From Pleomorphomonas carboxyditropha (GTDB taxonomy: Bacteria; Pseudomonadota; Alphaproteobacteria; Rhizobiales; Pleomorphomonadaceae): a DNA stretch of 64,000 nt. Location of the stretch: the NCBI RefSeq assembly GCF_002770725.1, contig NZ_NQVN01000003.1, positions 1 to 64,000 of the forward strand. Reading direction: 5' to 3'. The notes beneath the pieces are model-generated. The model was not told the DNA's origin. It was given only the letters and a program-made list of their open reading frames with translations, and did no database searches. Every line of letters starts with the position of its first letter. Positions within the stretch are counted from its first letter, which is position 1. Made by a program: the position numbers and the translations under genes. This document shows positions 33,311 through 51,097 of this stretch, piece by piece.

Positions 33311-33542
33311 TGCGGCCTCCTGTTTGCCTCGTTCCTGGCCTGCGTCCACCTCATGCGGATTGCGCCTCGCTTTCTCCTTCGATGATTGGCAAGAGGTTCC
33401 GGCGTTGCATGCTTGCCTATTCGGATAGGCAGATCGCATCCGAAAATTACGGAGGTTGAGGCGGAACGCTACCTGGCCGAAGACCTGAGAACCTCAATCA
33501 CCGCGACGCTGCACTACCGCCTGATCCACAGGTTCAGTTCAA

Positions 33543-34694
33543 TCAATTCCCGGGTTGCAGCTCCACACGCACCTCGCGCGATTTGCCGGCCCGTTCCACT
33601 GACAAGACCACCACATCGCCGACCTTCCTGTCGTCTAGCCGCGCGAGCAGCTTGGCCACATCGTCCGTCGCCTTGCCATCAACATCGATGATGCGGTCGC
33701 CCGGCACGATGCCTTGCGGCGTGACTTCGACACCCGCGAGGCCGGCCTTGTGCGCTGCCGAACCAGGGGTAACACGCAACACGAACACGCCCTTGCTTCC
33801 GGTCAGTGCAAGCAGACGCTGATTGAGCTGTTCGTCCACCTCAATGCCCAGCGCCGGACGGATGTACTTACCGGTCTTGATGAGTTGCGGGACTACGCGC
33901 ATGACGGTGTCCACCGGCACGGCGAAACCAATCCCGGCCGAGGCGCCGGAGGGGCTATAGATCGCCGTGTTGATGCCGATGAGCCTTCCTGCCGAATCGA
34001 GCAGCGGCCCACCGGAGTTGCCAGGGTTGATGGCGGCGTCGGTCTGGATCAGGTGATCGATGGCCGGGCCGCCCGCTTCTCCGGGTAACGAGCGGTCGAG
34101 CGCGGAGACGATGCCGGTGGTGAGCGTCCAGTCCAGGCCGAAGGGGTTGCCGATAGCGAACACCTTCTGACCCACCTTGAGGTCGGCACTGGTGCCGACC
34201 GGCACGGCCGGCGGGCGCTTGAAACCGACGCCAATCTTGAGCACGGCGATGTCGTGCGCTGGGCTCGTCCCCACCAGCGCGGCCTGGTAGTCGCGGCCAT
34301 CGGCGAGTTTGACCGTGGCTTCAGAAGCACCCTGGATGACGTGGAAGTTGGTGACGACGTGGCCGGCATCGTCCCAGATAAAGCCCGAACCGGTGCCGCG
34401 CGGCATGGAAAAGACATTGCGAGTCCAGACGTCGCGCACCAGCTGCGCGGTGGTGATGTAGACCACCGAAGCGCGCGATTCTTCGAACAGTTCGATGGTG
34501 GCTTTCTCGTCCGCCGCCAGATCGCCACGCGCCGTCACGGTGCGATCTGCCGCCTCGCGCGGACTGAACCAGGCCTCGATGGCGGGCAGGAACTGCCACA
34601 GCAGCATGAGCGTGGCAATACAGGCGGTGATGAAGAGCCAGCGCCGGATGAAGGGGTCCGGTGCGGGGCGTGGGTACGGGTCGGGGTAGGCCAT
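33543..34694 (-). CDS. degP: LHR DegP/DegQ-like serine protease
   Basis: 383 residues. One N-terminal membrane helix (WLFITACIATLMLLWQFLPAI) is followed by a trypsin-like domain with the triad His in NFHVIQ (about residue 118), Asp in HDIAVLK (about 148) and Ser in NPGNSGGPL (about 227). A single PDZ domain (about 275-375) closes it, versus two in true DegP. It should sit in the periplasm and remove or refold damaged proteins. The ATG at 34694 follows CAGGAGA. It is the last gene of the LHR unit. Confidence 0.9.
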   Translation of the reverse strand: MAYPDPYPRPAPDPFIRRWLFITACIATLMLLWQFLPAIEAWFSPREAADRTVTARGDLAADEKATIELFEESRASVVYITTAQLVRDVWTRNVFSMPRGTGSGFIWDDAGHVVTNFHVIQGASEATVKLADGRDYQAALVGTSPAHDIAVLKIGVGFKRPPAVPVGTSADLKVGQKVFAIGNPFGLDWTLTTGIVSALDRSLPGEAGGPAIDHLIQTDAAINPGNSGGPLLDSAGRLIGINTAIYSPSGASAGIGFAVPVDTVMRVVPQLIKTGKYIRPALGIEVDEQLNQRLLALTGSKGVFVLRVTPGSAAHKAGLAGVEVTPQGIVPGDRIIDVDGKATDDVAKLLARLDDRKVGDVVVLSVERAGKSREVRVELQPGN

Positions 34695-34718
34695 GAGAAG
34701 TCTCCTGTTGATAGGCAA

Positions 34719-35684
34719 TCAGCGCCACAGCCCGCTCGGGTGCCAGCGCGGCGGGCGCGGCGTCACAGCGGATTCCGGCAAGAAATGGGGCGCGTGGAAT
34801 GGCAACGCTGATGCTGGCCCAGGCGCCAACGTCAGCAGGCGTGCGATACGCTCTTGCGTTGCCGGATGCGTGCGCAAGCAGGAGGGCTCGGGATTGCCCC
34901 ATCCCGGCCACAGCCAGGCACGCCAGGAGCGGCTGACCCGCTCGATTTTCGCCAGCGCGGACGCCAGCCCCTGCGGGTCGCCCGTCAGTTCCGCCGCGAG
35001 GCGGTCAGCGTCGAACTCACGCACGCGAGACAAGCCGAGCTGTGCGAGCAGGGCCAGCTGGGGCGATGCGGCCAATAACAATAGACCAGGCCAATAGACC
35101 TCCGCCGCGCCAACCAGCAGCGCGGGCAGGTTGAGCAGGATCGCGATTTGTCCCATGAGGGCCAGCAGGCTCGTGAGGCGACTGACGGAATCCGCCAGCC
35201 TCATGACGCGCAGATCCTCATTGGTGATGTGCGCGATCTCGTGCGCGAGCACACCCGCCAGCTCGCGTGGGCTCAGGCTGCGCAGCAGGCCATCGGTGAG
35301 GGCGATCGATGCCTCCTGCTTCGATCCGGTGGCGAAGGCGTTGACGACGGCACTGGGCACATAGTGCGGCACCGGCGTGGCGGGCAAACCGGCACGGGCG
35401 GGCAGCTCGCGCAACAGGGCCCACATCTCGTGGGCTTCTTGCGGGTGCAAGGCCCGTACGCGGTACAGGCGCAAGCTCAGCGCCGACGCGGCTACCGGTT
35501 CCAGCAGCAACGCACCTGCAACGGCAAACAGCGCGAGCCACAGGCCGCCTTCCCCAAACGGCAGTCTCCCTGCTGCGGCTGCGATCCCGACCAGGGTCAG
35601 GACCAACAGCCCGGTCTGCAGGCGGTTGAGCCAGCGGTGTTGCAACAGCGCCGTGCGCGGATCACTGGGATGATGACGGGTCAT
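34719..35684 (-). CDS. LHR M48 (HtpX-like) membrane metalloprotease
   Basis: 321 residues. Two N-terminal membrane helices are followed by the M48 domain with zinc motif AHEIAHITNED (HExxH, about residue 155), further hydrophobic segments and the third zinc ligand in REFDADRLAAEL (about 230). HtpX-type enzymes cut misfolded membrane proteins. The ATG at 35684 starts the conserved part; the frame extends 19 codons upstream from a GTG without better support. It lies 24 bases before the DegP-like gene. Confidence 0.88.
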   Translation of the reverse strand: MTRHHPSDPRTALLQHRWLNRLQTGLLVLTLVGIAAAAGRLPFGEGGLWLALFAVAGALLLEPVAASALSLRLYRVRALHPQEAHEMWALLRELPARAGLPATPVPHYVPSAVVNAFATGSKQEASIALTDGLLRSLSPRELAGVLAHEIAHITNEDLRVMRLADSVSRLTSLLALMGQIAILLNLPALLVGAAEVYWPGLLLLAASPQLALLAQLGLSRVREFDADRLAAELTGDPQGLASALAKIERVSRSWRAWLWPGWGNPEPSCLRTHPATQERIARLLTLAPGPASALPFHAPHFLPESAVTPRPPRWHPSGLWR

Positions 35685-35771
35685 GCTCAGAGGTCTCGGC
35701 GGCGCGGTCGCCGCGCTTGCGCAGCAGCCAGTAGGTCGCACCCAGAGCCAGCGTGGCGCCTGCCAGCGCGG

Positions 35772-36158
35772 CTATCTTGCGGGGCTCGCCTCGGGGTCAA
35801 GGATCACGAACTTGCGCGCCAGCGCGATCAGACCGATGAGGATCACGGTCTTGACCTGGATGATGCTGTCCCGACGCAGCGCCACGCGCACAATGGAATG
35901 CTTGAACTCCATCGCGATCAAGAGCGTCATGATCATGCCGAACACACTCTGGAATACCTTGTGATCCAGGGGATTGAAGGCATCGAGGACCAGCAGCGTG
36001 AAGACGATGGCGATGAGCTGGAACAGCGACACCACGATGATGACGGCAATTACCGCCGACAGAACGAGGGCGACGACCTGCTCGAAGCGCTCGTATAAAC
36101 TCATGATGGCCCATTGGTCACGGAAGACCTGAAATGGATTGCGGCCTGTTGACTTCAT
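35772..36158 (-). CDS. psiE: LHR PsiE-family membrane protein
   Basis: 128 residues, four membrane helices: ERFEQVVALVLSAVIAVIIVVS, LFQLIAIVFTLLVLDAF, SVFGMIMTLLIAME and SIIQVKTVILIGLIALAR. The conserved EFKHSIVRV and ARKFVI segments fit the phosphate-starvation-inducible PsiE family. Function unknown; it is a constant LHR member. The ATG at 36158 overlaps the kefB stop by 4 bases; longer in-frame starts run antiparallel inside kefB and are not used. Confidence 0.88.
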   Translation of the reverse strand: MKSTGRNPFQVFRDQWAIMSLYERFEQVVALVLSAVIAVIIVVSLFQLIAIVFTLLVLDAFNPLDHKVFQSVFGMIMTLLIAMEFKHSIVRVALRRDSIIQVKTVILIGLIALARKFVILDPEASPAR

Positions 36159-37870
36159 GCAGATGGACTCCCTGCGACATTGCCGCTGTCGAGACGGCGG
36201 CGCATCGCACTGATGTTTCGTTCGACGAGCTTGGCCGACATGCCAAGCGACGACATCACTTGTTCCGCCAGCCCAAGGCCTGCGGCAAAGGATTGCTGGT
36301 ACACACGCACGTTGGGCATGGCGCGAAATGCATCGGCCGCGGTCGTACTTCTGCATGACACCCACAAGGTCAGCGCCGGACGGCGCTCGGCAATCGCCTG
36401 GGCGATGCGCAGCACTTGCTGGGCATGGGCGAACGTGAGCACCACCAGACGCGCTTGCGCCAACCCGGCAGCCAGCAGGGTATCGGGCCGACTCGCATCG
36501 CCATGGAACACCGGCACGCCGGCGGCACGCTCGGCCTCTACCTTCTGCTCGTCTGCTTCCAGCAGCAGATGCGCCACGCCGGCGTGGCGAAGAATCTCAC
36601 TGACGGTCAGGCCAAGCTCGCCCGCGCCGCAGATGATGACGTGGTCTCGAAATCGCGCTGTCTGCGCGGTGATCTCAACTTCTTCAGCCTGGGGTGGCTG
36701 AATGACGCCGCCGGTGCGGCTCAAGAACCGGGCAAGTACATCGTGATGGCGGATCAGCAGCGGTGCCAAGGCCATGCTGAGCACCAGCGCGACCAGCATG
36801 GGTTGTACGACGGTCGCGGGAATCAGATGCTGCTGCAAGACCATGCCCAACAACAGCAGGGCGAACTCGCCGCCATGCCCCAACGCTATGCCCGTGCGCC
36901 AGGCATCGAGGGCGGACAGGCGCGTCGCCCGCAAGGCCAGGGTGTTGAGCCCGATCTTGACCGGTACCAGCACTGCCAGCCACGCGAACACCGCCAGTGG
37001 TGCCGAAAGAATCTGCGCTCCGTCCAACTGCAGGCCGATGGTCACGAAGAACACCCCCGACAACACATCGCGAAACGGTTTGAGGTGGCTTTCCATGTGG
37101 TGACGGAAGTCGCTCTCGCCCAGCACCATGCCGGCCAAAAACGCACCCAGGGCGGCGGATACGCCGACCGCGTGTGCAGCAGCGGCGGCAGCCACCACCA
37201 CGCACAAGGAAACCAGCACGAAGGATTCTTCGTGGCCCTGCCGCGCCACCCAGCCCAGCAGGCCATGCAACAGACGACGGGAGGCGAGGGCCGCTGCCGC
37301 GAACAACATCAGCACGCCCAACACTTCGAGCAGCACGCTCTCGATCTTCGGCGACTCGCCGCGCGCCCAGATCGCCAGCAGGGCCAGCAGGGGCACGCTG
37401 GCCAGGTCCTGAAAGACCAGCACGCCGATGGCGCTGCGGCCGTGGCGGGTGGTGAGCTCGCCTTGGTCGGCCAGCTGTCGGCTGACCAGCGCCGTGGACG
37501 ACATGGCCGCCGCAGTGCTGAGCAACGCAGCGCGCTGAACTGGCTGTCCCAGCCACATCAACATCAAGGTCAGTGGCGTGGCGACAGCGATCATCTGCAA
37601 GCTGCCGGCCGCCAATACGGTTTTACGGGAAAGCCAGAAGTGCCCGAGGGAGAACTCCAGCCCAACCATGAACAGCAGCAGGGCCACGCCCAGCTCGGAC
37701 AGAAAATCAAGCGCTTCTCCCGGCGCGACTACACCGCTGACCGACGGGCCCAGCAAGGCGCCGACGGCGAGGTAACCCAGCAAGGCGGGTACTCTGAACG
37801 CCGCCGTCGCCACATCCGCGAGGCTGCATGCCGCCAGCAGGATCAGGGTGGCGCCGAGCAAGTCCTGCAT
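36155..37870 (-). CDS. kefB: LHR KefB-type cation:proton antiporter
   Basis: 571 residues. About 12 helices of the CPA2 antiporter fold (VPALLGYLAVGALLGP, SELGVALLLFMVGLEFSLGHFW) are followed by a C-terminal TrkA-N/RCK domain with Rossmann motif VIICGAGELGLTVSEILRHAG near residue 418 and FHGDASRPDTL. It should export K+ or another cation in exchange for protons and acidify the cytoplasm under electrophile or oxidative stress. No separate KefF/G-type ancillary gene is seen. It starts 3 bases after the thioredoxin stop. Confidence 0.9.
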   Translation of the reverse strand: MQDLLGATLILLAACSLADVATAAFRVPALLGYLAVGALLGPSVSGVVAPGEALDFLSELGVALLLFMVGLEFSLGHFWLSRKTVLAAGSLQMIAVATPLTLMLMWLGQPVQRAALLSTAAAMSSTALVSRQLADQGELTTRHGRSAIGVLVFQDLASVPLLALLAIWARGESPKIESVLLEVLGVLMLFAAAALASRRLLHGLLGWVARQGHEESFVLVSLCVVVAAAAAAHAVGVSAALGAFLAGMVLGESDFRHHMESHLKPFRDVLSGVFFVTIGLQLDGAQILSAPLAVFAWLAVLVPVKIGLNTLALRATRLSALDAWRTGIALGHGGEFALLLLGMVLQQHLIPATVVQPMLVALVLSMALAPLLIRHHDVLARFLSRTGGVIQPPQAEEVEITAQTARFRDHVIICGAGELGLTVSEILRHAGVAHLLLEADEQKVEAERAAGVPVFHGDASRPDTLLAAGLAQARLVVLTFAHAQQVLRIAQAIAERRPALTLWVSCRSTTAADAFRAMPNVRVYQQSFAAGLGLAEQVMSSLGMSAKLVERNISAMRRRLDSGNVAGSPSA

Positions 37871-37873
37871 CGG

Positions 37874-38314
37874 TCAGCGCCCCACCTGTGCAGATGCCCA
37901 GCGCACGATGTCCTGCGCGCCCAAGGCGCCAGCCTGACGCCCGATCTCCCGCCCACCCTGGAACAGGGCGAGCGTCGGAATGCTGCGGATGCCGAACTGC
38001 GCGGCCAGGTGGGGTTCTGCCTCGGTATTGACCTTGGCCAGCCTGACCCTGGGTTCGAGCTGGCGCGCCGCTTGCTGGAACTGCGGGGCCATCATCTTGC
38101 ACGGCCCGCACCAAGGTGCCCAGAAATCGACCAACAGTGGCAGGTCGCTGCGCTCCACGTGGCGCGAGAACGTCGCCGTGGTCAACTCGATGGGCTCGCC
38201 CGTGAACAAGGGCTGCTGGCAGCGGCCGCAGTTGGGATGTTCCGATAGCTTCGCAGTCGGTACGCGGTTGATGGACTGGCAATGCGGGCAGACAAGGTGA
38301 AGATCATTCTTCAT
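37874..38314 (-). CDS. LHR thioredoxin 2-type protein
   Basis: 146 residues. An N-terminal zinc ribbon (CPHC at about 9-12 and CGRC at about 29-32) is followed by a thioredoxin fold with active site WCGPC (about 68-72) and the cis-Pro in RSIPTLALF. This is the TrxC arrangement: a cytosolic disulfide reductase that resists oxidative stress. Its ATG lies 11 bases inside the end of the upstream gene, so the two are coupled. Confidence 0.93.
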   Translation of the reverse strand: MKNDLHLVCPHCQSINRVPTAKLSEHPNCGRCQQPLFTGEPIELTTATFSRHVERSDLPLLVDFWAPWCGPCKMMAPQFQQAARQLEPRVRLAKVNTEAEPHLAAQFGIRSIPTLALFQGGREIGRQAGALGAQDIVRWASAQVGR

Positions 38315-39449
38315 GGTTCGCCTCCTTGGACCACAGTGAGGCTGCCTCGCTTCGGGTCACAGACAATGCCGACCAATCAACGCCTTGGAGCCAATCGTTC
38401 CCGTTTTTGCTTACTCCGGCCTCTTCCAGATGAGCAGCGATGAATGCTTCGGCCTGCATGAGCCACCTTCGGACAGCATCTTCCTTACTAGGAATCAGCA
38501 GGATTTCAGAGACGCTGCTGGCATTCAGCCCGTCCACACGGATAAGCAGAAAAATGCGCCGCCACAAACGCGGCATGTCCTTCAGCAGGTCGAATGCAAA
38601 AGCGAACTCGCTCGACCGATCAATCAGCTCCTCCTGTTCCGCGATCGTTGCGACATCGGGATGCTGACTGCCAGCGAAGATATCGGCCAGCTTGAGTGTG
38701 TCATCGGGCTGATAAAATTCGAAGATTTCCTCTTCCACCATGGCCTCGGCGACGTCCTGGGCATCCGGTTCGACCGGCGCGTCCAGAGAAACGAATTCGC
38801 CAAATTGCCGGCTGCTTGCCACTTCGTTATCCAGGACGGCGAACAGATGCTTCAAAAGACCGGTGTAAGCCTCTTTTTCCCCCGGCACGGATTGCCATTC
38901 CACCTCAGCTCGGACAATCGCTTCATCCACCACGTCGCGCAGCGTCGGATAATCGCGCGGTAAATCGCCGACGGCCCGCAGATAAGCCAGCTCACGCCTT
39001 GCGACAGCCTCAAGTTTCGACAGTAGAGGCATTCGGGTCTCTTTGGCCTCATGGGCGGCTGACGCGGGTTTTGCAGCAATTCGCACCTTGAGCTCGCGCA
39101 AGCGCTCGCGTCGTGCTTTGCGCTTGATTTGATCCTGAGCATGCAGTCGGTCAAAATGCTTCTTGGCCTGACGGAACAACGACTGTGCGAGCATCTGCGC
39201 GAGGGGCGTCAGCTCGTCATGTGATGCAGTAACGCTGACAATCTTTTTGCCGGGCAGGTGCATATAGCCACTGGCCAGAAATTGCCGCTTGATCTTGTCG
39301 CGATCAAGGACGATTTGAAGTTGCGCTGAATCTTTAGTGTGTTTGTCGAGCAATGGCTTGAGGGCGTGCTCGATCACATTTCCCAAAGCTCTCTGCCAAG
39401 GTTCATGAAACTCTTTGTCGATAGCTCGATAGCTATATTGCATCTGCAT
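38304..39449 (-). CDS. LHR protein with HPF/RaiA-like and sigma-70-like regions
   Basis: 381 residues from the ATG at 39449 (GAAGGAG upstream). No firm family assignment. By eye, residues about 10-110 look like a hibernation-promoting-factor fold: helix, strand LQIVLDRDK, strand, KKIVSVTASHDELTPLAQMLAQSLFRQAKKHFDRL, then a basic tail. Residues about 140-230 (RRELAYLRAVGDLPRDYPTLRDVVDEAIVRAE) recall sigma region 2. Residues about 205-350 hold a SLDAPVEPD acidic stretch and RRIFLLIRVDGLNASSVSEILLIPSKEDAVRRWL, like sigma region 4. It is the LHR gene usually listed as hypothetical between hdeD and trx. Confidence 0.7.
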   Translation of the reverse strand: MQMQYSYRAIDKEFHEPWQRALGNVIEHALKPLLDKHTKDSAQLQIVLDRDKIKRQFLASGYMHLPGKKIVSVTASHDELTPLAQMLAQSLFRQAKKHFDRLHAQDQIKRKARRERLRELKVRIAAKPASAAHEAKETRMPLLSKLEAVARRELAYLRAVGDLPRDYPTLRDVVDEAIVRAEVEWQSVPGEKEAYTGLLKHLFAVLDNEVASSRQFGEFVSLDAPVEPDAQDVAEAMVEEEIFEFYQPDDTLKLADIFAGSQHPDVATIAEQEELIDRSSEFAFAFDLLKDMPRLWRRIFLLIRVDGLNASSVSEILLIPSKEDAVRRWLMQAEAFIAAHLEEAGVSKNGNDWLQGVDWSALSVTRSEAASLWSKEANHEE

Positions 39450-39528
39450 GTATGACTCCTTCGATGTCATTTCTATGGAGGTATGAATCGAGGATGCTCA
39501 TATCCATAGAATTTAGTTTGACCCGCTC

Positions 39529-40140
39529 TTATCCCTGGCGCGTTTTGCGAAGACGCCAACTCAAGAACAAAAGCGTGACACCATAGACTGCCGCATAGAA
39601 GCCCAACAGCCAGCCTGCGGCCAGGAATGACTCGACCGGACGGGAAAAAAATATCCACAAGACGATAGCGCCAAGGACAATCGAGAGCAGTCCACTGAAG
39701 GCAAGCCAGATTTCACCCTTGATTTCTTGACGCAGCCGAACGGCGGCGGATATCTCCAGCACACCGGTGAAAATCGCCCAGAACCCCACGCTAGCCCATA
39801 AAAAAGAAGCCATGACCATCGTGGCGACCCAAGGAGCAACCAGGACGACGACGCCGGTAAGTATGCCGACAATGCCGCTGAACAGCAGCCAGCCCCAGCG
39901 CTCTTTTTTCTGGATATGGCGCACCGCTGCAACCAAGTTGAAAGCGCCATTGACCAAGGAAAATGCGCCGAACACTAAGGTCATGGCCAACAGAGCCGAT
40001 TGTGGCATCCAGAACGCAAGGGCTGCGAAAATCAATGCCAAGACACCGCGCAACGCAAAAATCCACCAATTTTCGGTCAATGAACACAGTGTTTTGGTGG
40101 GCTCATCCGCACTGGAATCGGTGATGGTGTCTGTATTCAT
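39529..40140 (-). CDS. hdeD: LHR HdeD-family acid-resistance membrane protein
   Basis: 203 residues with six membrane helices in three paired DUF308 repeats (WWIFALRGVLALIFAALAFW, LLFSGIVGILTGVVVLVAP, LAFSGLLSIVLGAIVLWIF). It has the HdeD pattern of a short acidic N-terminus and basic C-terminus (LSWRLRKTRQG). HdeD supports acid resistance in dense E. coli cultures by an unknown mechanism. AGGAGAT precedes the ATG. GC content here and in the yfdX genes looks lower than in clpK or ftsH. Confidence 0.92.
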   Translation of the reverse strand: MNTDTITDSSADEPTKTLCSLTENWWIFALRGVLALIFAALAFWMPQSALLAMTLVFGAFSLVNGAFNLVAAVRHIQKKERWGWLLFSGIVGILTGVVVLVAPWVATMVMASFLWASVGFWAIFTGVLEISAAVRLRQEIKGEIWLAFSGLLSIVLGAIVLWIFFSRPVESFLAAGWLLGFYAAVYGVTLLFLSWRLRKTRQG

Positions 40141-40236
40141 GCTATATCTCCTAAAGATCTAATGGGGTGAAAAAGCAAACACTCCTGAGCCAAGAGAGGG
40201 GCGCGACGCGCCCCTCTTACGCCCTATCCAGCGGTT

Positions 40237-41124
40237 TCAGAACAACTTGGACAGCTTTGCCTTGATTTCATCGAGCCAGCCTTTTCCGCCGCCTCCCCCA
40301 GCCGTCTTTTGCTTGACTTTCTTGAGTTCAGCATACAGGGGCTCAAAGTCCTTCTTCTTTCCATAGCCCAGCAGTTCTGCCATTTCCAACTGCTGCCGCG
40401 CTTCGTTCAATAATGTCTCCAGGCGCTCATTGGACGCTTCGCTCCGCTGACCATCTTCTACCAAGGTCTCGGCGCGCTTCAGGAGCAGCCTGGCGCGCAG
40501 GGCGGGCAGCGGATGCACGCTGCGCGTCTCGACCAGCGTGCTGAGCGCTGCCTGCAGCGCGGCTTTGGCTTCTTCAATCTTGCCCTGATCGATCAGCGGC
40601 ACGACTGACTTCACGGCTGCGGGATAGGACGCCAGAGGGATGTTGGTGACCGCGATCACGATTTCACTGGCCAGCAAAGCCAGCACGTGACGTGCCTGTT
40701 GCACCTCGCCATGTTTGAGGGCATCCAGCGCCTCGTCGGTCATCGCCTCAATGGTTTCCGTGTTGGCGAACAAGTCGTGCACGATGGTGCGCACATCAAC
40801 GGGGGCCAGGGCGAGCGTGGGTTCGCGCGCAACGATCAGCTCCAGCTTTCCCGTCACTTCGGCCAGCGTTGCCAATGCGCGTGCAGCGTCCTTTCCGTCA
40901 AGTGCGGCCAGCGCTGATTTGGTCAGCGCCAAGGCCGAGACGGCCTCATCGAGGACTTGTTTACGTTTGTCTGCCGCCTGCGAGTCCGTTTCCTTCTGAA
41001 CCTCAGGCTGTACCTCCGTGACGACTTCAGCCTTGGCCTCTGGACTGACAGGAAGGCTGCTTACCGCGGCCTGTTCGTTTATTTCTTTGTTCGTCGCATT
41101 GGGATTCGATGTTTGCTCATTCAT
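40237..41124 (-). CDS. yfdX2: LHR YfdX-family protein, no signal peptide
   Basis: 295 residues. The helical YfdX core runs from about residue 52 to 260 (DEAVSALALTKSALAALD, LALAPVDVRTIVHD, ALLASEIVIAVTNIPLASYPAAVKSV, ARLLLKRAETLVEDGQ, LLGYGKKKDFEPLYAEL). The first 50 residues are an acidic, Glu/Gln/Val-rich tail without hydrophobic core, so it lacks an export signal, unlike its neighbour. The end is Gly/Lys-rich (TAGGGGGKGWLDEIKAKLSKLF). YfdX proteins are linked to acid and antibiotic tolerance; mechanism unknown. Confidence 0.88.
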   Translation of the reverse strand: MNEQTSNPNATNKEINEQAAVSSLPVSPEAKAEVVTEVQPEVQKETDSQAADKRKQVLDEAVSALALTKSALAALDGKDAARALATLAEVTGKLELIVAREPTLALAPVDVRTIVHDLFANTETIEAMTDEALDALKHGEVQQARHVLALLASEIVIAVTNIPLASYPAAVKSVVPLIDQGKIEEAKAALQAALSTLVETRSVHPLPALRARLLLKRAETLVEDGQRSEASNERLETLLNEARQQLEMAELLGYGKKKDFEPLYAELKKVKQKTAGGGGGKGWLDEIKAKLSKLF

Positions 41125-41226
41125 GGTGATATGCCTCGTGTGAGTTAGTGAAAATAGGCGAATCTATTGGGGCTGACTGCGAACATCGCGAGACTGACCG
41201 ACCGAACAGTCGGCCCCTTCATCACC

Positions 41227-42141
41227 TCAAAACAGCTTTTGGAGGCGCGTCTTCAACTCGTCGAACCATCCCTTGCCGCTTTTGCCACCAGCCGACTTTT
41301 GCTCAATGGACTTCACATGATCGAAGATGGGTTTGAAATCCGCCTTCTTGCCATAACCCAGGATCTGCGCCATCTCGATCTCCGTGCGCACGGACGACAG
41401 CAAGGTGCTGAGCTCCTCGTTCTGCTTGGCATCGCGCTTGTCGGTCTCGGCCAGCTTTTCAGCTTTTGCCATCGCGGCTTCAGCCCGTAGCACGGGCAGA
41501 GGAAAGGCGACCGAGGTCACCACCAGCGTGTTCAGTGCTCGGGCGAGTTCCGCCTTGGCGTCGTCGATCTTGCCGCTGTCGATGAGCCGTGCGGCCGACT
41601 TGATCGCTGCCGGGTACGTTGCCATCGGCAGGTTGTCGGTTTCGATCACGATTTCGCTGGCCAGATTGGCGACGATGGGCCGGGCCTTTTGCAGCTCGCC
41701 ATCACCCAAGAACTCCCGAGACAACTTGACCGCCTTCTTCACCGATTCCACGTTGGCGTGGATATCGTGGGTGATGACGCGTACATCGACCGGCGCCAAA
41801 GCAAGTTTGGCGTCGCGTGCCAATACCAGTTCCAGCTTTCCGCTGGCCAGTTCCAGCGCAGCGAGCGCCTCCTTGGTCTTCTTTGCATCAAGGAGTGTCA
41901 AAGCCTCCTGGGTCTTGGTGAGCGCCGTGATGGCGTCCTGAGTGAGCTCAGCACGCTTTTTTTCGGCTTCCCGGGCGGCCTTGTCATCTACCTGTGGCTG
42001 CGCCGCCTTGGAAGCGGCAGAGGGTGCTGCAGCACCTGGGCTAGAACCTGCCGCCGATTGGGCCAGAGCCGGTCCGCTCAGTCCGACGACGACCGCCAGG
42101 GCTAGTGCGGAGAAGGTTGATTGGGGCTGTTTGATATTCAT
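41227..42141 (-). CDS. yfdX1: LHR YfdX-family periplasmic protein
   Basis: 304 residues with a signal peptide (FSALALAVVVGLSGPALAQ) and an Ala/Pro-rich linker. The YfdX core follows (DAITALTKTQEALTLLD, LALAPVDVRVITHDIHAN, IVANLASEIVIETDNLPMATYPAAIKSA, LLSSVRTEIEMAQILGYGKKADFKPIFDH). It ends KGWFDELKTRLQKLF like its paralog. It should fold in the periplasm. It is separated from yfdX2 by about 100 bases, and the two look like an old duplication. Confidence 0.9.
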   Translation of the reverse strand: MNIKQPQSTFSALALAVVVGLSGPALAQSAAGSSPGAAAPSAASKAAQPQVDDKAAREAEKKRAELTQDAITALTKTQEALTLLDAKKTKEALAALELASGKLELVLARDAKLALAPVDVRVITHDIHANVESVKKAVKLSREFLGDGELQKARPIVANLASEIVIETDNLPMATYPAAIKSAARLIDSGKIDDAKAELARALNTLVVTSVAFPLPVLRAEAAMAKAEKLAETDKRDAKQNEELSTLLSSVRTEIEMAQILGYGKKADFKPIFDHVKSIEQKSAGGKSGKGWFDELKTRLQKLF

Positions 42142-42163
42142 GATCTTGGGCTCCTAATTAAAG

Positions 42164-42620
42164 TTAGTTGACTGAGATTTCAATCTGTTTCGGTTTGGCT
42201 TGCTCGGCCTTGACAAGCCGCACTCCCAGCGCGCCGTCTTTCATCAGCCGTCACCTTGGTCGGATCAACGTTGTCAGGCAAGACAGAGCTGCGCACAAAG
42301 CGGCCATACGCACGTTCGATGCGGTGGAACTTCTTGCACTGCTTCTCTTTTTCCAGTTTGCGCTCGCCGCTGATGGTGAGCACGCCGTTTTCCGCGCTGA
42401 CGCGCGCGGCATCCTTGGGGACCTCCGGCAGATCCAGCTTGAGGAGGAATGCGTTCTCATCCTCGCTGATGTCCACCATTGGTGCCCAGTCCGCCGTGGT
42501 CATGGCTTCGTTGCCGGTACGGGCGCCCTGTCGCTGGGGTATTCGTCCGAACATCGTCGCCAGGCCGTTTTGCAATTCATCCAGTTCCCGGAAGGGGTCC
42601 CACGGAGTCAATGCAGACAT
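42164..42620 (-). pseudogene. hsp20: LHR second small heat-shock protein, frameshifted near the C-terminus
   Basis: Starts at the ATG at 42620 (AAGGAGAAC upstream). The alpha-crystallin domain is normal to about residue 115 (WAPMVDISEDENAFLLKLDLPEVP, GVLTISGERK, SVLPDNVDPTKVTAD). The expected VTADMKDGALGVRLVKAE continuation is present but in another frame: GATGAAAG near 42240 replaces what should be GAT-ATG-AAA-G. Read with the shift, the protein would end at the TAA at 42164-42166 with KPKQIEISVN. As read it ends at 42180 with an unrelated Arg/Ala-rich tail, losing the last beta strand and IxI-type tail. Either a real lesion or a base-call error. Confidence 0.75.
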
Positions 42621-42698
42621 ATCGGTTCTCCTTGAACAATGCCGGCGAATTGGATGACGCACCGAACAGAGCCGCCGGCTTACTCTGAATAGCGCCTA

Positions 42699-44528
42699 CT
42701 ACTTTTCGTTTCCATCAAGAACAAGTCCTTGGGTCAATTGAAGGATGTCGTTCTCGTCGAGCGTTTCCCGCGCCAGCAGTTCGCGCGCACAACGCTCCAG
42801 CACCGCGCGGTTGGTGTCGAGGATCCCGTAGGCGCGCTCGAACACGCCCATCACGATGTCGCGGATGGCCTGATCGATGCGCGCCTGGGTCGATTCGGCC
42901 ACCCGGCAGCCGCCGTGGGCCAGTTCCGGTGTATCGAGAAAGCGTGGCCGCTGCGCCTCGAAGGCGATGTAGCCCAGTCCTTCGTCCATGCCAAAGCGGG
43001 TGATCATGTCGCGGGCAATGTCGGTGGCCCGTGCGAGGTCATCGGCAGCCCCGGTGGACAGCTCGCCGAACACGAGCTTCTCGGCCGCACGACCGCCCAG
43101 CAGCACGGCGATCTTGTGTTCCAGATCGGCGCGCGTCATCAGGAAGCGGTCTTCGGTGGGGCGTTGCAGCGTGTAGCCCAGCGCGCCGATGCCGCGCGGG
43201 ATGATTGAGATCTTGTGCACGGGGTCGGTGCCGGGCAGCGCCAGCGCCACCAGCGCATGGCCCATCTCGTGATAGGCCACGGTTTCCCGCTCCTTGGGAT
43301 TGAGTACTCGGTTCTTCTTCTCCAGGCCCGCCACGATGCGCTCGATGGCGGCGGTGAAGTCCTGCAACTCCACGGCGGACGCTTTGCGCCGGGTCGCGGC
43401 CAGCGCGGCCTCGTTGACCAGGTTCGCGAGGTCTGCACCCGAAAAGCCCGTGGTCAGCGCAGCCACCTGTTCGAGATCGATATCCTGGGCCAGCGTCACC
43501 TTCTTGACATGAACCTTCAGGATGTCCAGCCGTCCCTTCTTGTCGGGCCGGTCCACCAGCACCTGACGGTCGAAGCGACCGGCGCGCAGCAGCGCCTGGT
43601 CGAGGATTTCGGGGCGGTTGGTGGCGGCGAGGATGATCAGCCCGACCGAGCTGTCGAAGCCGTCCATCTCCGTGAGCAGCTGGTTGAGGGTCTGCTCGCG
43701 CTCGTCGTGGCCGCCGATGGGGCCGCCGACGCCGCGCGCGCGGCCCAGCGCATCGAGCTCGTCGATGAAGATGATGGCCGGCGCCTGCCCGCGGGCCTGC
43801 TCGAACAGGTCGCGCACGCGCGCTGCACCCACGCCGACGAACATCTCGACAAACTCTGATCCGGAGATGGAGAAGAAGGGCACCGCCGCCTCGCCGGCAA
43901 CAGCCTTGGCCAGCAATGTCTTGCCGGTGCCCGGTGGGCCGACCAGCAACACGCCCTTGGGAATGCGCGCCCCGAGCCGTCCATACTCCTGCGGATTCTT
44001 GAGGAAATCGACGATCTCAACCAACTCCGCCTTGGCCTCATCGACACCCGCGACATCGGCAAAGGTGACGCCGGTGTTCTTCTCCATGAACACCTTGGCG
44101 CGGCTCTTGCCGATGCTCAGGAAGCCGCCCATGCCCTGCTTCTCGGCGAAGCGGCGGAACAGGAAGAACCAGACGCCGAAGAAGGCCACCGCCGGCAGAA
44201 TCCAGGAGAGCACATCACGTAGCCAGGTGCTTTCCACCACCCGCGCGTAAGGCACGTCGTACTTGGACAGCCGCTCGGCCAGGTCGGGTTCGACGCGAGT
44301 GGCCACGATGGTGGTCTTGCCCCGGCTGTCCGGCGATTTCAGGCGCCCGGTGACCGTGCGGTCCGACACCAGCACTTCGGCGACGCGCCCCTCGGCCAGC
44401 GCCTTCTCGAATTCGCTGTAGGGCACGGGCTCGACGGTCTTGGCCGCCTGCCAGTAGTTCTGCAGCGTCAGCAGCAACAGGCCGGCGACGATCCAGTAGC
44501 CAATGTTCCATTGATCTTTCTTTTCCAT
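42699..44528 (-). CDS. ftsH: LHR FtsH-type AAA+ membrane protease
   Basis: 609 residues from the ATG at 44528 (GAGGAAC upstream). Two N-terminal membrane helices flank a short periplasmic domain. The AAA domain has Walker [14 protein letters not shown] near residue 198, Walker [12 protein letters not shown], and [26 protein letters not shown]. The M41 zinc site is HEMGHAL near 420. It degrades damaged membrane and soluble proteins. It is an accessory copy; the host should also have its own chromosomal ftsH. Confidence 0.95.
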
Positions 44529-44555
44529 GGGCAATGTTCCTCGCAAGTCGTGCCG

Positions 44556-46007
44556 CTAGAGAATGGGGGTGAACAGACGGGCCACCCCGTCGCGCAAGCG
44601 GATGGCCAGCGGGCGGGCGCGCAACGCCATGGCCGATATCTCGTTCGATGCATCACGGGCGGCATCAAAAAGGGATTCCAGCCGCGTAGACAGCGCGGTG
44701 TCGTACACCTCCACATTGAACTCGAAGTTGAGGCGCAGGCTGCGCGCATCCCAATTGGCCGAACCCAGGCAGCACCACTGGCCGTCTATCAGCATCAGCT
44801 TGCTGTGGTCGAACGGGCCCGGCCGTTCGAAGATGCGCATACCGTGCTCCAGCACCTGCCAGTAGTGGGCGCGTGCGGCCCATTGCACCGTGGGATGGTC
44901 GCCGTTTGCGGGCGTCAGCACGTCGATACGCACGCCGCGCAACGCGGCCGTGCTTAGCGCCGCGATCATCGGCTGATCGGGCACGAAGTAAGGTGTCCAG
45001 ATGCGCACCGAATGCTTCGCCGCGCTCAAAGCGCCCATGAAGGTCCAGCGCAGCCGGTCCAGGGCCTCATCGGGACCGGCCTCGATGCCGCGCGCCCAAG
45101 AGGTTCCTTGCTCATCAGCCGTTGCGGGCGGTTCGCCCCAGAGACCCTCGTTGAGCCGCTCGCCCGTGGTATCGCACCAATCGTCGGTGAAGCACCGCAT
45201 CAGATGCGCAACCACCGGCCCGCGCAGACGAAAGTGCAAATCGTGACAGGCCCGGCCCGGCGCATCGGGCCGCCAATACGGGCTGAAGATGTTCATGCCG
45301 CCGGTGAAACCCGTCTCGCCATCGATCACCAGCAGCTTGCGGTGATTGCGCAGATGCGCGGCATGCAGGCGCGCGGGAATCAACGTCGGGTTGAACGTCG
45401 CCGCCGGAACGCCGGCGCGCTGCAAGGCGCGGTAGGCGCTGCGGGGCGTCCAGCGGGCATACACGTCGTCGATCAGCACCCGCACTTGCACGCCGCGCTC
45501 ATGAGCCCGGCGCAGCGCATCGACGAACTGCGCCCCGATGCCTTGGCTGTCGAAGATGTACGAGGCCAAGGCGACGCTGTACCGCGCCGATTCGATGGCG
45601 GCGAGCATGGCCGGGTAGGCCTGCTCGCCATCGACAAGCGGCTCGATGCGGTTGCCGCTGGTCAGCGACTGGCCGGTGGCGCGTCCCACCAGGTGGGCCA
45701 GACCGGCAAGCGGCGGCGATACAGCCTCGGGCATCGTGGGCGAGAGGTCCTGCCGAACAGCAGGATCTGCCCCCGGGAAGAGCCGCCGCGCCCGCCGCTG
45801 GTAACGGTTGATGCCGAACAGCCCATACAGCAGCGAACCGCCCAGCGGCAACAAGGCGATCAGCAGTACCCACAGCGTGGCCGATCGAGGGTCACGCTTG
45901 TAGATGACCGCGTGCCCCGCTGTGGGGATAGCGACCGCCAGCGACACGAGGGTGGCTGCCCATGTCAGCCCGTTGGGGTCGGACACGACAGCCTCCCCAT
46001 GACTCAA
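44556..46007 (-). CDS. LHR phospholipase D / cardiolipin-synthase-like protein
   Basis: 483 residues. Two N-terminal membrane helices (LVSLAVAIPTAGHAVI, LWVLLIALLPLGGSLLYGLF) are followed by two HKD motifs: HLRNHRKLLVIDGE near residue 218 and FDHSKLMLIDGQWCCLGSANWD near 397. This is the layout of bacterial cardiolipin synthases, so it probably remodels phospholipid head groups in the inner membrane under heat stress. Its ATG overlaps the clpK stop by 4 bases. Confidence 0.87.
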   Translation of the reverse strand: MSHGEAVVSDPNGLTWAATLVSLAVAIPTAGHAVIYKRDPRSATLWVLLIALLPLGGSLLYGLFGINRYQRRARRLFPGADPAVRQDLSPTMPEAVSPPLAGLAHLVGRATGQSLTSGNRIEPLVDGEQAYPAMLAAIESARYSVALASYIFDSQGIGAQFVDALRRAHERGVQVRVLIDDVYARWTPRSAYRALQRAGVPAATFNPTLIPARLHAAHLRNHRKLLVIDGETGFTGGMNIFSPYWRPDAPGRACHDLHFRLRGPVVAHLMRCFTDDWCDTTGERLNEGLWGEPPATADEQGTSWARGIEAGPDEALDRLRWTFMGALSAAKHSVRIWTPYFVPDQPMIAALSTAALRGVRIDVLTPANGDHPTVQWAARAHYWQVLEHGMRIFERPGPFDHSKLMLIDGQWCCLGSANWDARSLRLNFEFNVEVYDTALSTRLESLFDAARDASNEISAMALRARPLAIRLRDGVARLFTPIL

Positions 46008-48853
46008 GATTCGCCGCCCGCTGACTTCTTCTTGCGCGCAGGCTTGCTCGCGTCGCTCGGCGGCGTCTCGGCCGCGTTCGCGGCATCGGGCTTCTCAGGC
46101 TCGGCCGGCTTCGCGGGTGGCTCCTGGCGCTCGAAGACCACCCGTTCGGCCTTGTCGTCCCAGCGGGCGCTGGCGTGATCGGCCTTGCCGATACCGCCAC
46201 CCAGCATCTCGCGCGCCAGTGCCGTCTCCAGCTCGCTGCGGATCAGCCGCTTGAGCTCACGCGCGCCGAACTCGGGCTTGTAGCCTTCCTCCGCGAAGTG
46301 ATCGATCAAGGTCTGATCGAAGGTCAGCGTCACGCCCTGGCTGGCGGCGTTGCGGGCCACACGATCGAGCTGCAGGCCGACGATATGGCGGATCTCCTCC
46401 TTGCCCAGCGCATGGAAGACGATGATCTCGTCGATGCGGTTGAGGAACTCGGGGCGGAAGTGTCCGCGCAGCACGTCCATCACCTCGCCCTTGGTCTTCT
46501 CGTATTCCTCGCCGGCGGCGCCACGGGCCTTCAGCCGACGCTGGATGATGTCCGAGCCCAAGTTCGAGGTGGCGATGATGATGGTATTGGTGAAATCCAC
46601 CACCCGGCCCTTGCCGTCGGTGAGCCGCCCGTCGTCGAACACCTGCAGCAGGATGTTGTAGACGTCGGGGTGAGCCTTCTCGATCTCGTCCAGCAGCAAC
46701 ACGCTGTAGGGTTTGCGCCGCACCTTCTCGGTGAGCTGGCCACCCTCGTCGTAGCCGACGTAACCCGGAGGCGCCCCCACCAGGCGTGCCACGGTATGGC
46801 GTTCCCCGTACTCGGACATGTCGATGCGCAGCAGAGCACCTTCATCGCCATAGATGGACTCGGCCAGCGCCTTGGCGAGCTCGGTCTTGCCCACACCCGT
46901 CGGCCCGAGGAACAGGAAGGTGGCCACTGGCTTGCCGCCTTCGCGCAGGCCCGCGCGCGCCAGACGCACGGCATCGGCCACCGCGCGCACCGCTTCGTCC
47001 TGGCCCACCAGGCGCTCGTGCAGCCGCTGCTCCAGATGCAGCAGCTTCTCGCGTTCTTCCACCGTCAGCTCGTTGACCGGAATGCCGGTCAGGCGCGAGA
47101 CGATCTGCGCGACATGCTCGGCTTTGACTTCGGCGCTACCCGAGGCGCGCTCGCGTTCCCATTCCTCGACAAGCTTCTTGAGTTCGGCCTCTTTGGTCTC
47201 GATGTGCTTGCCCAGCTCGGCGGCCTTGTCGTACTGCTTGCGCGAGGCCACATAGTCCTGCTCACGCCGCAGCTGGTGCAGTTCGGACTCCAGCTCTTGT
47301 ACGGCCACTGGGCGGGCCGTGGCCGACAGCTTCACACGTGCGGCCGCCTGGTCGAGCAGGTCAATTGCCTTGTCGGGCAGAAAGCGGGCGGTGATGTAGC
47401 GGTCGGACAACTCGGCGGCGGCGATGATCGCGTCCTCTGTGATACTGACCTTGTGGTGCGCCTCGAACGTGTCGCGCAGGCCGCGCAGGATCATCATGGT
47501 CTGCGCTACCGTCGGCTCGGGCACCATCACCGGCTGGAAGCGACGCTCCAGCGCGGCGTCCTTCTCGATGTACTTCTGATACTCGTTGAGCGTGGTGGCG
47601 CCGATCAGGTTCAGCTCGCCGCGCGCCATCATCGGCTTGAACACGTTGGCCACGTCCAGCCCGCCTTCGCCGCCACCCTGGCCGGCACCGACGATGGTGT
47701 GCACCTCGTCGATGAAGAGAATCAGCTCACCCTGGTGCTCGGTCACTTCCTTGAGCACCTTCTGCACGCGCTCCTCGAACTCGCCGCGGTACTTGGCGCC
47801 TGCCACCATGGCGTTGATGTTGAGTTCGACCAGACGCTTGTCGCGCAGCGTCTCGGGCACTTCGCCGGCGACCATGCGCTGCGCCAGCCCTTCGACGATG
47901 GCGGTCTTGCCGACGCCGGGCTCGCCGATCAGCACCGGGTTGTTCTTCTTGCGCCGGGCCAGCACTTCGATGGTCGTCTCGATCTCCTGCGCGCGGCCGA
48001 TGACCGGATCGAGCTTGCCCTCGCGCGCCATCTTGGTGAGGTCGCGCGAATACTTGTCGAGTTCCGGCGTGTTGGTCGGCGTCTCGGCGCGGCCATCCTC
48101 GGCCCCTTTGCCGACCACCTTGCTTACCTGCTGGCGCAGCGCTTGCGGCGTGAGGCCGTAACGGCGCAGCAGGTTGGCCGCCAAACCTTCGCCTTCCTCG
48201 GCGAGCCCGATCAGGAAATGCTCCGGCCCGACATAAGAGTGGCCGAGTTCGTTGGAGGCCACGAAAGCACGGCTGAGCGCGTCCTTGACCCGGGGCGACA
48301 CGCCGATCTCGCCCTCGAACGGCTTATCGCCGCGCTTGGCTTCGGATTCGATCTGGCGCTTGAGGTCATCGACCTTGATCTTGAACTGCCCCAGGATGGT
48401 CTTGACCACGTCGCTGTCGGATAGCGCCAGCAGCAGGTGTTCGGTATCGACTTCGGCGCGCCCGAACTCTGCAGCGTGTCGGGCGGCCTCCTGCAATAGG
48501 GCCTCGGACTGTTCGCTGATACGGCTGGCGAGCCCACTGCCGCGACGGCGCGCGGTGCCCGTACCGGCCGGGGCGGGTTCGCCGAACGAGGCATCGACGA
48601 CCTCGTCGGTATCGGCCGCCATGGACGGTGCGTCGTCACCGATGCGGAAGAAGTCGCTGCCAAGGAAGTCTTCGAACAGCCCGCTGCGCGAGCCGAACAA
48701 GGCTTCCAGCGGTGAGACGGTGCGCTTTTGCTGGCGCACCAGTTGGCGATAGTGATCGTCACACAACAGCATGGTGCTGTGGCGACCATTGAGATTGGCT
48801 TCCACCCGCACCGTGGCGGGCTGGCCGCAGACTTGGCATTGTTTTCTGGCCAT
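46004..48853 (-). CDS. clpK: LHR disaggregase ClpK (ClpG-GI)
   Basis: 949 residues from the ATG at 48853 (AGGAGC upstream), the size I recall for ClpG-GI. N-terminus: a zinc-finger-like C6-x2-C9 and C31-x2-H34, then a Clp N-domain pair ([21 protein letters not shown]). AAA1: [16 protein letters not shown] short middle domain ([23 protein letters not shown]) is followed by AAA2: [20 protein letters not shown]. The C-terminal tail is Pro/Lys-rich ([10 protein letters not shown]...ARKKKSAGG). It dissolves protein aggregates at lethal temperatures and is the main heat-resistance factor of these islands. Confidence 0.95.
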
Positions 48854-48946
48854 GCTGATGCTCCTGTAAAGATTGATCTGACGAGGCACCGCCGATCACG
48901 GTGCCTCATCTCTTTGTGGTTTTTGAGAAAAACGCGCTGCCCCGCG

Positions 48947-49516
48947 TCAGCCGTTGATCGGGATCGAGCGCCCCTGCTTGGGCGTACTGGCCTCGCGCTT
49001 TTCCATCGTGATCGTGAGCACGCCGTTCTTGAAAGCGGCCTTGATCGTGTCCTGGTTGGCATCGGCCGGCAGATTCAGAGCGCGCTGAAAGCTGCCGTAG
49101 GAGCGCTCCACCCGGTGGAAACCACCGTCTTTGCTTTCCTGCTCCTGACGCTTTTCACCGCGCACCAGCAGCACGTCGTTGTCGAGCGTGATCTGGATGT
49201 CTTTTTCCTCGATGCCGGGTACTTCCAGGGCGATCTTGTACTGCTTGTCGGTCTCCTGGATGTCCAGCGCCGGCTTCAGCATGCCCGGCCAGTCCGACGG
49301 CCAGCGTGGCATGGCCAGCGTCGGGAAACCGAAGCCTCGAAACGCGTCGTCGAACAGGCGGTCGATCTCGCGATGCAATTGCAGGATGGGACTGACGGGC
49401 CCACCCGCCACCGGCAGGTCATTGCGCTGCACCGGCAGCGAGGCAGTGCTCTGTTGTTCTTCCTGCTCCTTTTTGAACCAGTTCCAGGGAGCCAATTTCT
49501 TGAAATCAATGTCCAT
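48947..49516 (-). CDS. hsp20: LHR small heat-shock protein (sHsp20c type)
   Basis: 189 residues. The alpha-crystallin domain covers about residues 75-165 (PALDIQETDKQYKIALEVPGIEEKDIQITLDNDVLLVRGEKR, SYGSFQRALNLPADANQDTIKAAFKNGVLTITMEK). Long N-terminal arm; short C-terminal tail with an IPI motif (RSIPING) for oligomer contacts. It holds denatured proteins for ClpK. The ATG at 49516 is 5 bases after GGAGGT. Unlike the second copy, this one is intact. Confidence 0.93.
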   Translation of the reverse strand: MDIDFKKLAPWNWFKKEQEEQQSTASLPVQRNDLPVAGGPVSPILQLHREIDRLFDDAFRGFGFPTLAMPRWPSDWPGMLKPALDIQETDKQYKIALEVPGIEEKDIQITLDNDVLLVRGEKRQEQESKDGGFHRVERSYGSFQRALNLPADANQDTIKAAFKNGVLTITMEKREASTPKQGRSIPING

Positions 49517-49548
49517 GTCATACCTCCAGAAATCAATTGAAGACTCAC

Positions 49549-49830
49549 TCAATCCGCTTGCCTGCGGCTATGGATAGCGCGCCCAGGCAACACGGGATGT
49601 TTCGCTGACTTCGGCTGCTCATCTGTGCGTATCACCTCCTTCTTTCTGCCTGCTTGGATCTGATCATTGATCCATTGATCGATTTCACTTTGACGAAACC
49701 GCCACGTCCCGCCGACCTTGAAGGCCGGAATTTCCCCGTGCGCGGCGAGCCGGTAAAGCGTCCGCTTGCCGACCTTTAAGTAGGTAGCCAACTCGTCGAG
49801 TGTGAAGATCGCCTGCTGGCGCGCTGTCAT
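49549..49830 (-). CDS. LHR excisionase-type HTH DNA-binding protein ('dna' gene)
   Basis: 93 residues. A helix-turn-helix of the excisionase/MerR-like HTH_17 type (FTLDELATYLKVGKRTLYRLAAHGEIPAFKVGGTWRFRQSEIDQWI) with a basic tail. It is the first gene of the LHR unit and corresponds to the small gene upstream of shsp20c-clpG in published islands. It is likely a regulator or nucleoid-type protein acting on the direct repeats just upstream. The ATG at 49830 follows GGGGGTGG. Confidence 0.85.
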   Translation of the reverse strand: MTARQQAIFTLDELATYLKVGKRTLYRLAAHGEIPAFKVGGTWRFRQSEIDQWINDQIQAGRKKEVIRTDEQPKSAKHPVLPGRAIHSRRQAD

Positions 49831-49878
49831 ACCACCCCCACATGTTCCGTCGTCACGCGGCCTCGCTCGAGGAAGTTC

Positions 49879-51092: not shown

Positions 51093-51097
51093 AAAGC

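Follow-up and report, generated by a model that had tools for sequence, protein, structure and literature searches.

A tLSTa/TLPQC-1-type stress island carried by an apparently self-transmissible tRNA-Gly integrative and conjugative element in the alphaproteobacterium Pleomorphomonas carboxyditropha

The window analysed here is a stretch of 64,000 nucleotides from Pleomorphomonas carboxyditropha, which opens a contig of 386,455 bp (NZ_NQVN01000003.1) in a 5.88-Mb draft genome; window numbering and contig numbering are the same. On its minus strand, at 33543-49830, lies a stress island of the tLSTa/TLPQC-1 type (tLST, transmissible locus of stress tolerance) with its whole gene set. We consider it highly probable that this island is carried as cargo at the left end of an apparently self-transmissible integrative and conjugative element (ICE), 76.6 kb long and of the tRNA-Gly/MOBH/PFGI-1/ICEclc-like kind, which entered an alphaproteobacterial chromosome very recently, most likely from a betaproteobacterial pool. 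The anatomy of the element, its ends and insertion site, the open frames of its mating genes and its near-identity to betaproteobacterial copies are all observed, and it is on them that this reading is built. A preliminary description, made from the letters of the window, had already suggested a cross-class transfer by a conjugative element, and this is now supported by the near-identical copy found in Zoogloea, by a ClpK that groups with those of beta- and gammaproteobacteria and by alphaproteobacterial flanks. Elements of this kind have been published before; what is new is the alphaproteobacterial host and the very recent transfer between classes.

In a megablast search, 33543-49830 matched plasmid copies of Escherichia coli and Klebsiella at 94.4-94.5% identity over 100% of the query, and a single place covering at least 80% of it was found in 213 of the 1367 matching plasmid records and in 121 of 5426 E. 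coli genomes. The tLSTa reference of PMC8407380, E. coli S43 (CP010237), aligned at 94.3% identity with 100% coverage, so that the comparison with a published tLST sequence proposed in the preliminary description agrees with its reading of the locus. Conservation of 94.3-94.5% over the full length exceeds the 80% DNA identity used for tLST / LHR / TLPQC-1 (LHR, locus of heat resistance), and the conserved extent, about 33.52-49.97 kb, goes slightly beyond the interval compared. The dna-hsp20-clpK core operon is present, with a ClpK above the NF033606 cut-off, together with the ordered full tLST set (cls, ftsH, yfdX twice, hdeD, trx, kefB, psiE, htpX, degP). All the genes listed beforehand were thus found on the minus strand in the stated order, and the island is complete as far as gene content goes, but not as far as psiE is concerned, which is frameshifted.

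The ICE occupies contig 32216-108836 and is bounded by 18-bp direct repeats. An exact repeat search placed attL (TGGAGCGGGTGAAGGGAA) at 32216-32233 and its partner attR at 108819-108836, which is the 3' end of a tRNA-Gly(CCC) gene (108819-108892, minus strand); the 3'-terminal 18 bp of this gene therefore recur exactly at 32216, and no further copy with up to 5 mismatches was found within 30000-33000. A tyrosine integrase of 618 amino acids (106724-108580) adjoins the tRNA gene. The element also encodes a MOBH relaxase (MobH/TraI; NF041494, 372 bits, cut-off 200), a TraG_N protein recognised by Pfam, and mating proteins above curated cut-offs: TraC PFL_4706, TraD TIGR03754, RAQPRD, STY4534 and nine TIGR mating families (TIGR03745, 03746, 03747, 03750, 03752, 03755, 03757, 03758, 03759). 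A PFGI-1-class relaxase combined with TraC PFL_4706, TraD and TIGR0374x-0375x mating genes characterises ICEs of the PFGI-1 type (MPF_G), and the conjugative element postulated in the preliminary description is therefore confirmed by both att repeats at tRNA-Gly, the integrase, the relaxase and the mating genes. A tLST inside a tRNA-Gly ICE is already on record (PMC5347186, PMC7685784).

For the comparison of ICE segments with other carriers we used 14 genomes, chosen mostly for long matches from the best 80 of 556 confirmed ClpK loci. The right end of the ICE is listed at 100% for four of them (Zoogloea sp. LCSB751, Achromobacter anxifer, A. ruhlandii and Curvibacter delicatus), and the same four carry segment 48900-64000 at 98-100%; in the other ten, one or both segments are weaker, shorter or absent, and the right end is unmatched in four. 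The copy of A. ruhlandii aligns in one unbroken stretch of 76.8 kb at 97.48%, that of A. anxifer in two pieces (97.3% and 98.5%) around an insertion of about 1.1 kb, and that of Curvibacter at 97.4% over 72.9 kb, up to the end of the Curvibacter contig. The closest copy is that of Zoogloea sp. LCSB751, an isolate from activated sludge (PMC5648520), at 99.73% over 70,973 bp; in the ICE backbone (58000-108818) it shows only 31 mismatches in 50,819 aligned bases. With so few differences from the copy of another species, the backbone appears to have moved very recently. Further betaproteobacterial loci (Xenophilus, Thauera, Melaminivora, Castellaniella) carry an island-bearing element that matches from attL (32214 or 32216) and has a more divergent interior.

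The element has a second cargo, a cyclic-oligonucleotide-based antiphage signalling system (CBASS), which lies beyond the window at contig 81886-87877 (L095:1886-7877). PADLOC identified its genes at E 5e-20 or better: capH and capP at 81886-83273, and a patatin phospholipase effector, CD-NTase, E1-E2 and JAB at 83651-87877. We take the adjacent effector/CD-NTase/E1-E2/JAB set to be a type II CBASS. All four betaproteobacterial copies carry this locus as well, and in the 82-88 kb windows their DNA is 99.85-100% identical to that of the element described here.

It is quite unlikely, in our judgement, that the element has long resided in, or originated from, the alphaproteobacteria and moved to the betaproteobacteria from there. 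Some alphaproteobacteria do possess bisDC loci (PMC7423338); a Tistrella plasmid, one of nine plasmid records matching window 50000-64000 (none of them from E. coli), has a related backbone (77.9% over 65% of that interval); and alphaproteobacteria have divergent ClpK islands of their own. Against such an origin stands, in the first place, the rarity of the element, which was evaluated in 385 genomes of the class, 397 of the order and a further comparison of 40 genomes, each a sample that includes the host and not a census. The island core (38304-42662, E <= 1e-100) was found in 1 of the 385 class genomes, which is the host itself. ClpK DNA at E <= 1e-250 occurred in three of them, the two other than the host at 76%. 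The ICE right end occurred in 2 of the 397 order genomes, the host and G007, where the match is 72% over 1.7 kb. Some match to island DNA was present in 39 of the 40 genomes, nearly always at 66-76% to genes of the ClpK/ClpB and FtsH types, and G003, of the same genus as the host, had a 2.1-kb yfdX1-yfdX2 piece, listed at 99%, and not the island. The possibility that the element is common in alphaproteobacteria is hence unsupported by the class and order samples, and the many alphaproteobacterial genomes with the same ICE and island that the preliminary description had named as evidence against itself did not turn up.

The phylogeny of ClpK, which had been proposed as a check, points in the same direction. 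In a tree of 84 rows, the window row and that of Zoogloea do not differ in any of the 948 columns (99.9% identity over the full 961 residues), and the window row falls inside a supported set of 36 rows comprising 23 betaproteobacteria, 9 gammaproteobacteria, 1 Desulfuromonadia, 1 Desulfovibrionia, the window and an E. coli plasmid. Of the 25 rows that bear the label Alphaproteobacteria, by contrast, 24 belong to a distinct clade of 27 rows; the 25th, Sphingopyxis sp. LK2115, stands among gammaproteobacteria (ClpK 92%), and no YfdX match was found in the 19.7 kb available of its locus. In view of this nesting of the window ClpK among beta- and gammaproteobacterial rows, outside the alphaproteobacteria's own clade, we rejected the reading of the island as a native alphaproteobacterial one.

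Concerning the literature, Table 2 of PMC5347186 lists carriers among beta- and gammaproteobacteria and one deltaproteobacterium, with no alphaproteobacterium. The preliminary description knew such islands from beta- and gammaproteobacteria, but tLST genes, mostly as partial islands, had already been reported from alphaproteobacteria (PMC8290217). Among the literature matches listed, subscription papers excepted, we recognised no alphaproteobacterium with the complete island on this ICE. The example given in PMC8290217 of an alphaproteobacterium with an archetypical island is Methylobacillus flagellatus KT, which NCBI taxonomy places in the Betaproteobacteria.

The alphaproteobacterial ClpK clade (loci L061-L085) is a separate lineage of the tLST kind, in which several loci have FtsH, HdeD and small heat-shock proteins and some have Trx or KefB-like genes. 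A 2.14-kb segment with yfdX1 and yfdX2 (window 40159-42300) recurs at 98.6-98.8% identity and with the same boundaries in L099:3412-5555, L070:15270-17413 and L077:11618-13761. There it adjoins divergent tLST-like genes of the alphaproteobacterial type, together with a ClpK of the alphaproteobacterial clade in L070 and L077; in L099, a short contig of G003, only HdeD, Trx and KefB-like genes stand beside the pair. We take the yfdX1-yfdX2 segment to be a cassette exchanged between the two island lineages.

That the ICE is decayed and immobile, with the tLST as a passive relic, we regard as very unlikely. Such a state would agree with the frameshift in psiE and with what may be a remnant of an IS66-like insertion sequence at the island border. 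However, the mating and integrase frames are open, with 91-100% protein identity to the four betaproteobacterial copies, and none of the 63 called ICE proteins has a stop in any aligned counterpart there. The two att repeats are identical, and the 31 backbone mismatches imply recent movement. The gene caller missed seven ICE genes, including psiE, hdeD and part of the CBASS. As for individual counterparts, KefB had no match in the Zoogloea copy, DegP and HtpX had none in the Curvibacter copy, whose contig ends there, and the LysR match in Curvibacter is a 48% paralogue. We predict, from the sequence, that the element is still able to excise and transfer. With respect to psiE itself, knock-outs in E. 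coli have attributed protection from heat and chlorine to sHsp20, ClpK, sHspGI, pscA, pscB and HdeD, and protection from chlorine only to KefB (PMC8407380). Since psiE is not among the seven protective genes named there, its defect need not abolish heat resistance.

The host was assigned to the alphaproteobacteria because its transfer-messenger RNA is of the alpha_tmRNA family (RF01849; 297 bits, cut-off 50, E 2.7e-87), a model that was positive in 1 of 14 control genomes (Caulobacter). The alphaproteobacterial chromosome assumed at the outset is borne out by this result. When 20 kb of host chromosome were compared with 16 named genomes, identities among the matches listed were 66-78%, the best being to Shinella and Paracoccus, and some of the matches listed were to betaproteobacteria and one gammaproteobacterium.

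On the chromosomal side of the insertion, the left flank is matched over kilobases in 12 of 13 genomes of the same genus, at 81-89% identity. In G005, G012 and G013 this match is unbroken as far as 30646-30766; in most of the others it ends at about 30.26 kb or is taken up again in another piece. From 108.8 kb onwards, the right flank is collinear in all four relatives examined (G002, G005, G012, G013), and in G005 and G012 the site is empty, the chromosome running directly into an uninterrupted tRNA-Gly gene. On the side of the element, a query from 31000 was matched only from 32216 by Zoogloea, A. anxifer, A. ruhlandii and loci L009, L026 and L057, and from 32214 by L056; in the first three, the sequences just inside the ICE ends are alike and those outside are different. 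Since both flanks are collinear with genomes of the same genus and two of these have the empty site, 32216 is attL and not a chimeric joint: a chimera at this position, which the preliminary description had named as its possible undoing, was rejected on the evidence of the collinear flanks, the exact att repeats, the empty site and the ends of the betaproteobacterial copies. More generally, that a betaproteobacterial ICE was wrongly joined to an alphaproteobacterial contig by misassembly or contamination is extremely unlikely, for although the near-identity to Zoogloea and a draft of 80 contigs with an estimated contamination of 3.54% would fit it, each junction falls exactly on the 18-bp repeat, one of them in the tRNA-Gly gene of the host itself, the 280 kb examined contain no N, and two independent false joins placed precisely at attL and attR are implausible.

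Between the conserved left flank and attL there is a segment of about 1.4 kb (30767-32215) with a PF12281 nucleotidyltransferase gene (30859-31971), which G005 and G012 lack at this position. Farther out, at about 21-29 kb, the flank matches annotated genes of the autoinducer-2 (lsr) operon, for example in NZ_CP084754.1 (Roseateles sp. XES5) at 74%. A tRNA-Thr call at 28834-28909 was taken as spurious because it overlaps a long open reading frame (28240-29805).

Several observations weigh against the recent arrival of an intact element from betaproteobacteria in an alphaproteobacterial host. The assembly yielded no 16S gene, and the contamination rating of the draft belongs here as well. The tLST half differs from Zoogloea at 149 of 14,487 aligned bases and has its kefB segment replaced; because this half is more divergent than the backbone, the element must be regarded as a mosaic. 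In G002 and G013 the matched flanks are separated by 1.7-1.9 kb of other DNA, and the insertion site is therefore variable. psiE is frameshifted near 35.78 kb in the assembly sequence, whereas the E. coli copy is intact; its product, aligned to that copy, is without about the last 37 residues. A consensus search for a sigma-70-like promoter ahead of the operon (49500-50300) gave none, and among 20 further ICE proteins scanned, 7 had no NCBIfam family and 2 only matches below cut-off. The direction of transfer, probably from beta- to alphaproteobacteria, rests on the numbers of carriers in an uneven sampling of species. The kefB segment itself (36105-37896) seems to be a variable slot inside the island, where the Zoogloea copy has a longer stretch of about 3.2 kb.

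If the ICE arrived as we propose, integrase-mediated recombination at the 3' end of tRNA-Gly(CCC) would have brought it into the alphaproteobacterial chromosome. Judging from the protein families, the integrase would excise it, the MOBH relaxase would nick it and the TraD/TraC/TraG machinery would export it. Once the HTH-headed operon (HTH, helix-turn-helix) is expressed, disaggregation by ClpK and Hsp20 and proteolysis by FtsH, DegP and HtpX may help the host to withstand heat and chlorine, as they do in E. coli, to which envelope protection by YfdX and HdeD and redox control by Trx and KefB could add. We put forward more tentatively, as a possibility that falls a little short of an even chance, that a single broad-range ICE with a complete heat/chlorine island and a CBASS is at present passing between Beta- and Alphaproteobacteria, in wastewater communities for instance, that the class border is no bar to its excision, mating and function, and that this host is the first alphaproteobacterium with the complete archetypal island instead of a divergent or partial version. 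In any case, the host range of a stress island noticed in clinical and industrial settings is extended to an alphaproteobacterium, with its vehicle, exact ends and insertion site visible. A 50.8-kb backbone 31 bases away from its betaproteobacterial counterpart testifies with unusual directness to recent ICE movement between classes. A phage-defence locus travels with stress tolerance on one element, and the element makes tests of host range and fitness possible.

The genes of the island, all on the minus strand, begin with the HTH regulator (dna, first in the operon; 49549-49923, Pfam HTH_17), followed by an Hsp20 small heat-shock protein (48947-49552, Pfam HSP20), the stand-alone disaggregase ClpK (ClpG-GI; 46004-48889; NCBIfam NF033606, 2159 bits, cut-off 1900), a cardiolipin synthase of the phospholipase D type (44556-46007; NCBIfam TIGR04265, 294.5 bits, cut-off 290) and FtsH-GI (42699-44546; NCBIfam TIGR01241, above cut-off). 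The small heat-shock protein sHSP20-GI (42180-42662) was named from an Hsp18-like NCBIfam match below cut-off and the E. coli annotation. It precedes yfdX1 (41227-42141) and yfdX2 (40237-41124), both recognised by Pfam YfdX, which we take to be the pair called pscA and pscB. The membrane protein gene hdeD-GI (39529-40140; NCBIfam HdeD below cut-off, Pfam DUF308, E. coli annotation) is followed by the conserved tLST orf (38304-39470), for which Pfam found no family and whose E. coli counterpart is annotated as hypothetical, and by the thioredoxin Trx-GI (37874-38314; Pfam Thioredoxin with Zn-ribbon). Last come a kefB/kefC-like K+/H+ antiporter gene (36155-37870; NCBIfam Kef models below cut-off, the aligned E. 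coli gene being annotated kefB-GI), the frameshifted and C-terminally truncated psiE-GI (35772-36365; alignment to E. coli, Pfam PsiE to model position 94 of 122), whose reading frame starts farther upstream than the E. coli gene, an M48 / HtpX-like zinc protease gene (34719-35741; NCBIfam HtpX models below cut-off, E. coli annotation) and a degP/htrA-like serine protease gene (33543-34718; NCBIfam Do family at 297 bits, below the cut-off of 416, the aligned E. coli gene being annotated as a trypsin-like peptidase).

The part of the ICE inside the window (32216-64000) runs on to contig 108836. Between attL and the island lies a LysR-family regulator (32402-33439, minus strand; Pfam PF03466, PF00126), and at the outer island border there is a possible IS66-type transposase remnant (50425-51000, minus strand), whose translation presumably resembles IS66 transposases. 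The genes beyond it are on the plus strand: a second LysR-family regulator (51098-52006, Pfam); ParA (53651-54571; NCBIfam ParA-like below cut-offs, and its position by synteny with an annotated P. veronii plasmid); a ParB family protein (54739-56466; TIGR03764 ICE_PFGI_1_parB above cut-off, no match in Pfam); a DUF2857 protein (56479-57039, Pfam PF11198); an ICE replication protein of the STY4528 family (57043-58293; NF040582, above cut-off); a PFL_4669-family protein (58523-59302; TIGR03761, above cut-off); and DNA topoisomerase III, TopB (60442-62589; TIGR01056 and PRK07726, above cut-off). In ICEclc, BisD has a ParB domain and BisC a DUF2857 domain (PMC7423338), and the ParB gene followed by the DUF2857 gene (54739-57039) occupies the position of these bisDC regulators.

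Among known systems, the alphaproteobacterial tLST-like islands (PMC8290217; L061-L085) resemble that of the window in joining ClpK with FtsH, HdeD and small heat-shock proteins in several cases, but their ClpK reaches no more than 70-74% identity in the best segments, and it forms a separate clade. The tLSTa of E. coli S43 is alike over the whole query and probably differs in its genomic context, none of the nine plasmid records that match window 50000-64000 being from E. coli. PACGI-1/TLPQC of Pseudomonas aeruginosa clone C (PMC7685784) is a PAGI-like island located at the 3' end of tRNA-Gly, with a tLST along one of its borders, and is of similar size (86 kb against 76.6 kb); as far as a comparison by description goes, it differs in its gammaproteobacterial host, and it is said to be without the cell envelope stress module (PMC8290217). 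Alike in island clade gene set and in the tRNA-Gly ICE is the TLPQC-1 element of Nguyen et al. 2017 (PMC5347186), a TLPQC-1 inside an ICE at tRNA-Gly with an 18-bp att, whose published core repeat, TGGAGCGGGCGATGGGAA, differs from the att of the window at 2 of 18 positions and is exactly the right-end repeat of the Zoogloea copy; again by description, the hosts in its Table 2 do not include an alphaproteobacterium, unlike the window. Finally, the ICEclc family (PMC10732049, PMC7423338) shares with the window ICE the insertion at the 3' end of tRNA-Gly, 18-bp repeats, a MOBH relaxase, a size within 57-133 kb and the ParB and DUF2857 pair. Its definition includes an att within 2 mismatches of GTCTCGTTTCCCGCTCCA, tRNA-Gly 3'-end insertion, a MOBH relaxase and more than 70% identity to at least 20 of 40 ICEclc core genes (PMC10732049). 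The window ICE has this insertion and relaxase, while its att departs from GTCTCGTTTCCCGCTCCA at 5 of 18 positions, so that the earlier label of a clc-type ICE does not extend to the repeat, and the likeness to ICEclc, judged from the architecture, fits.

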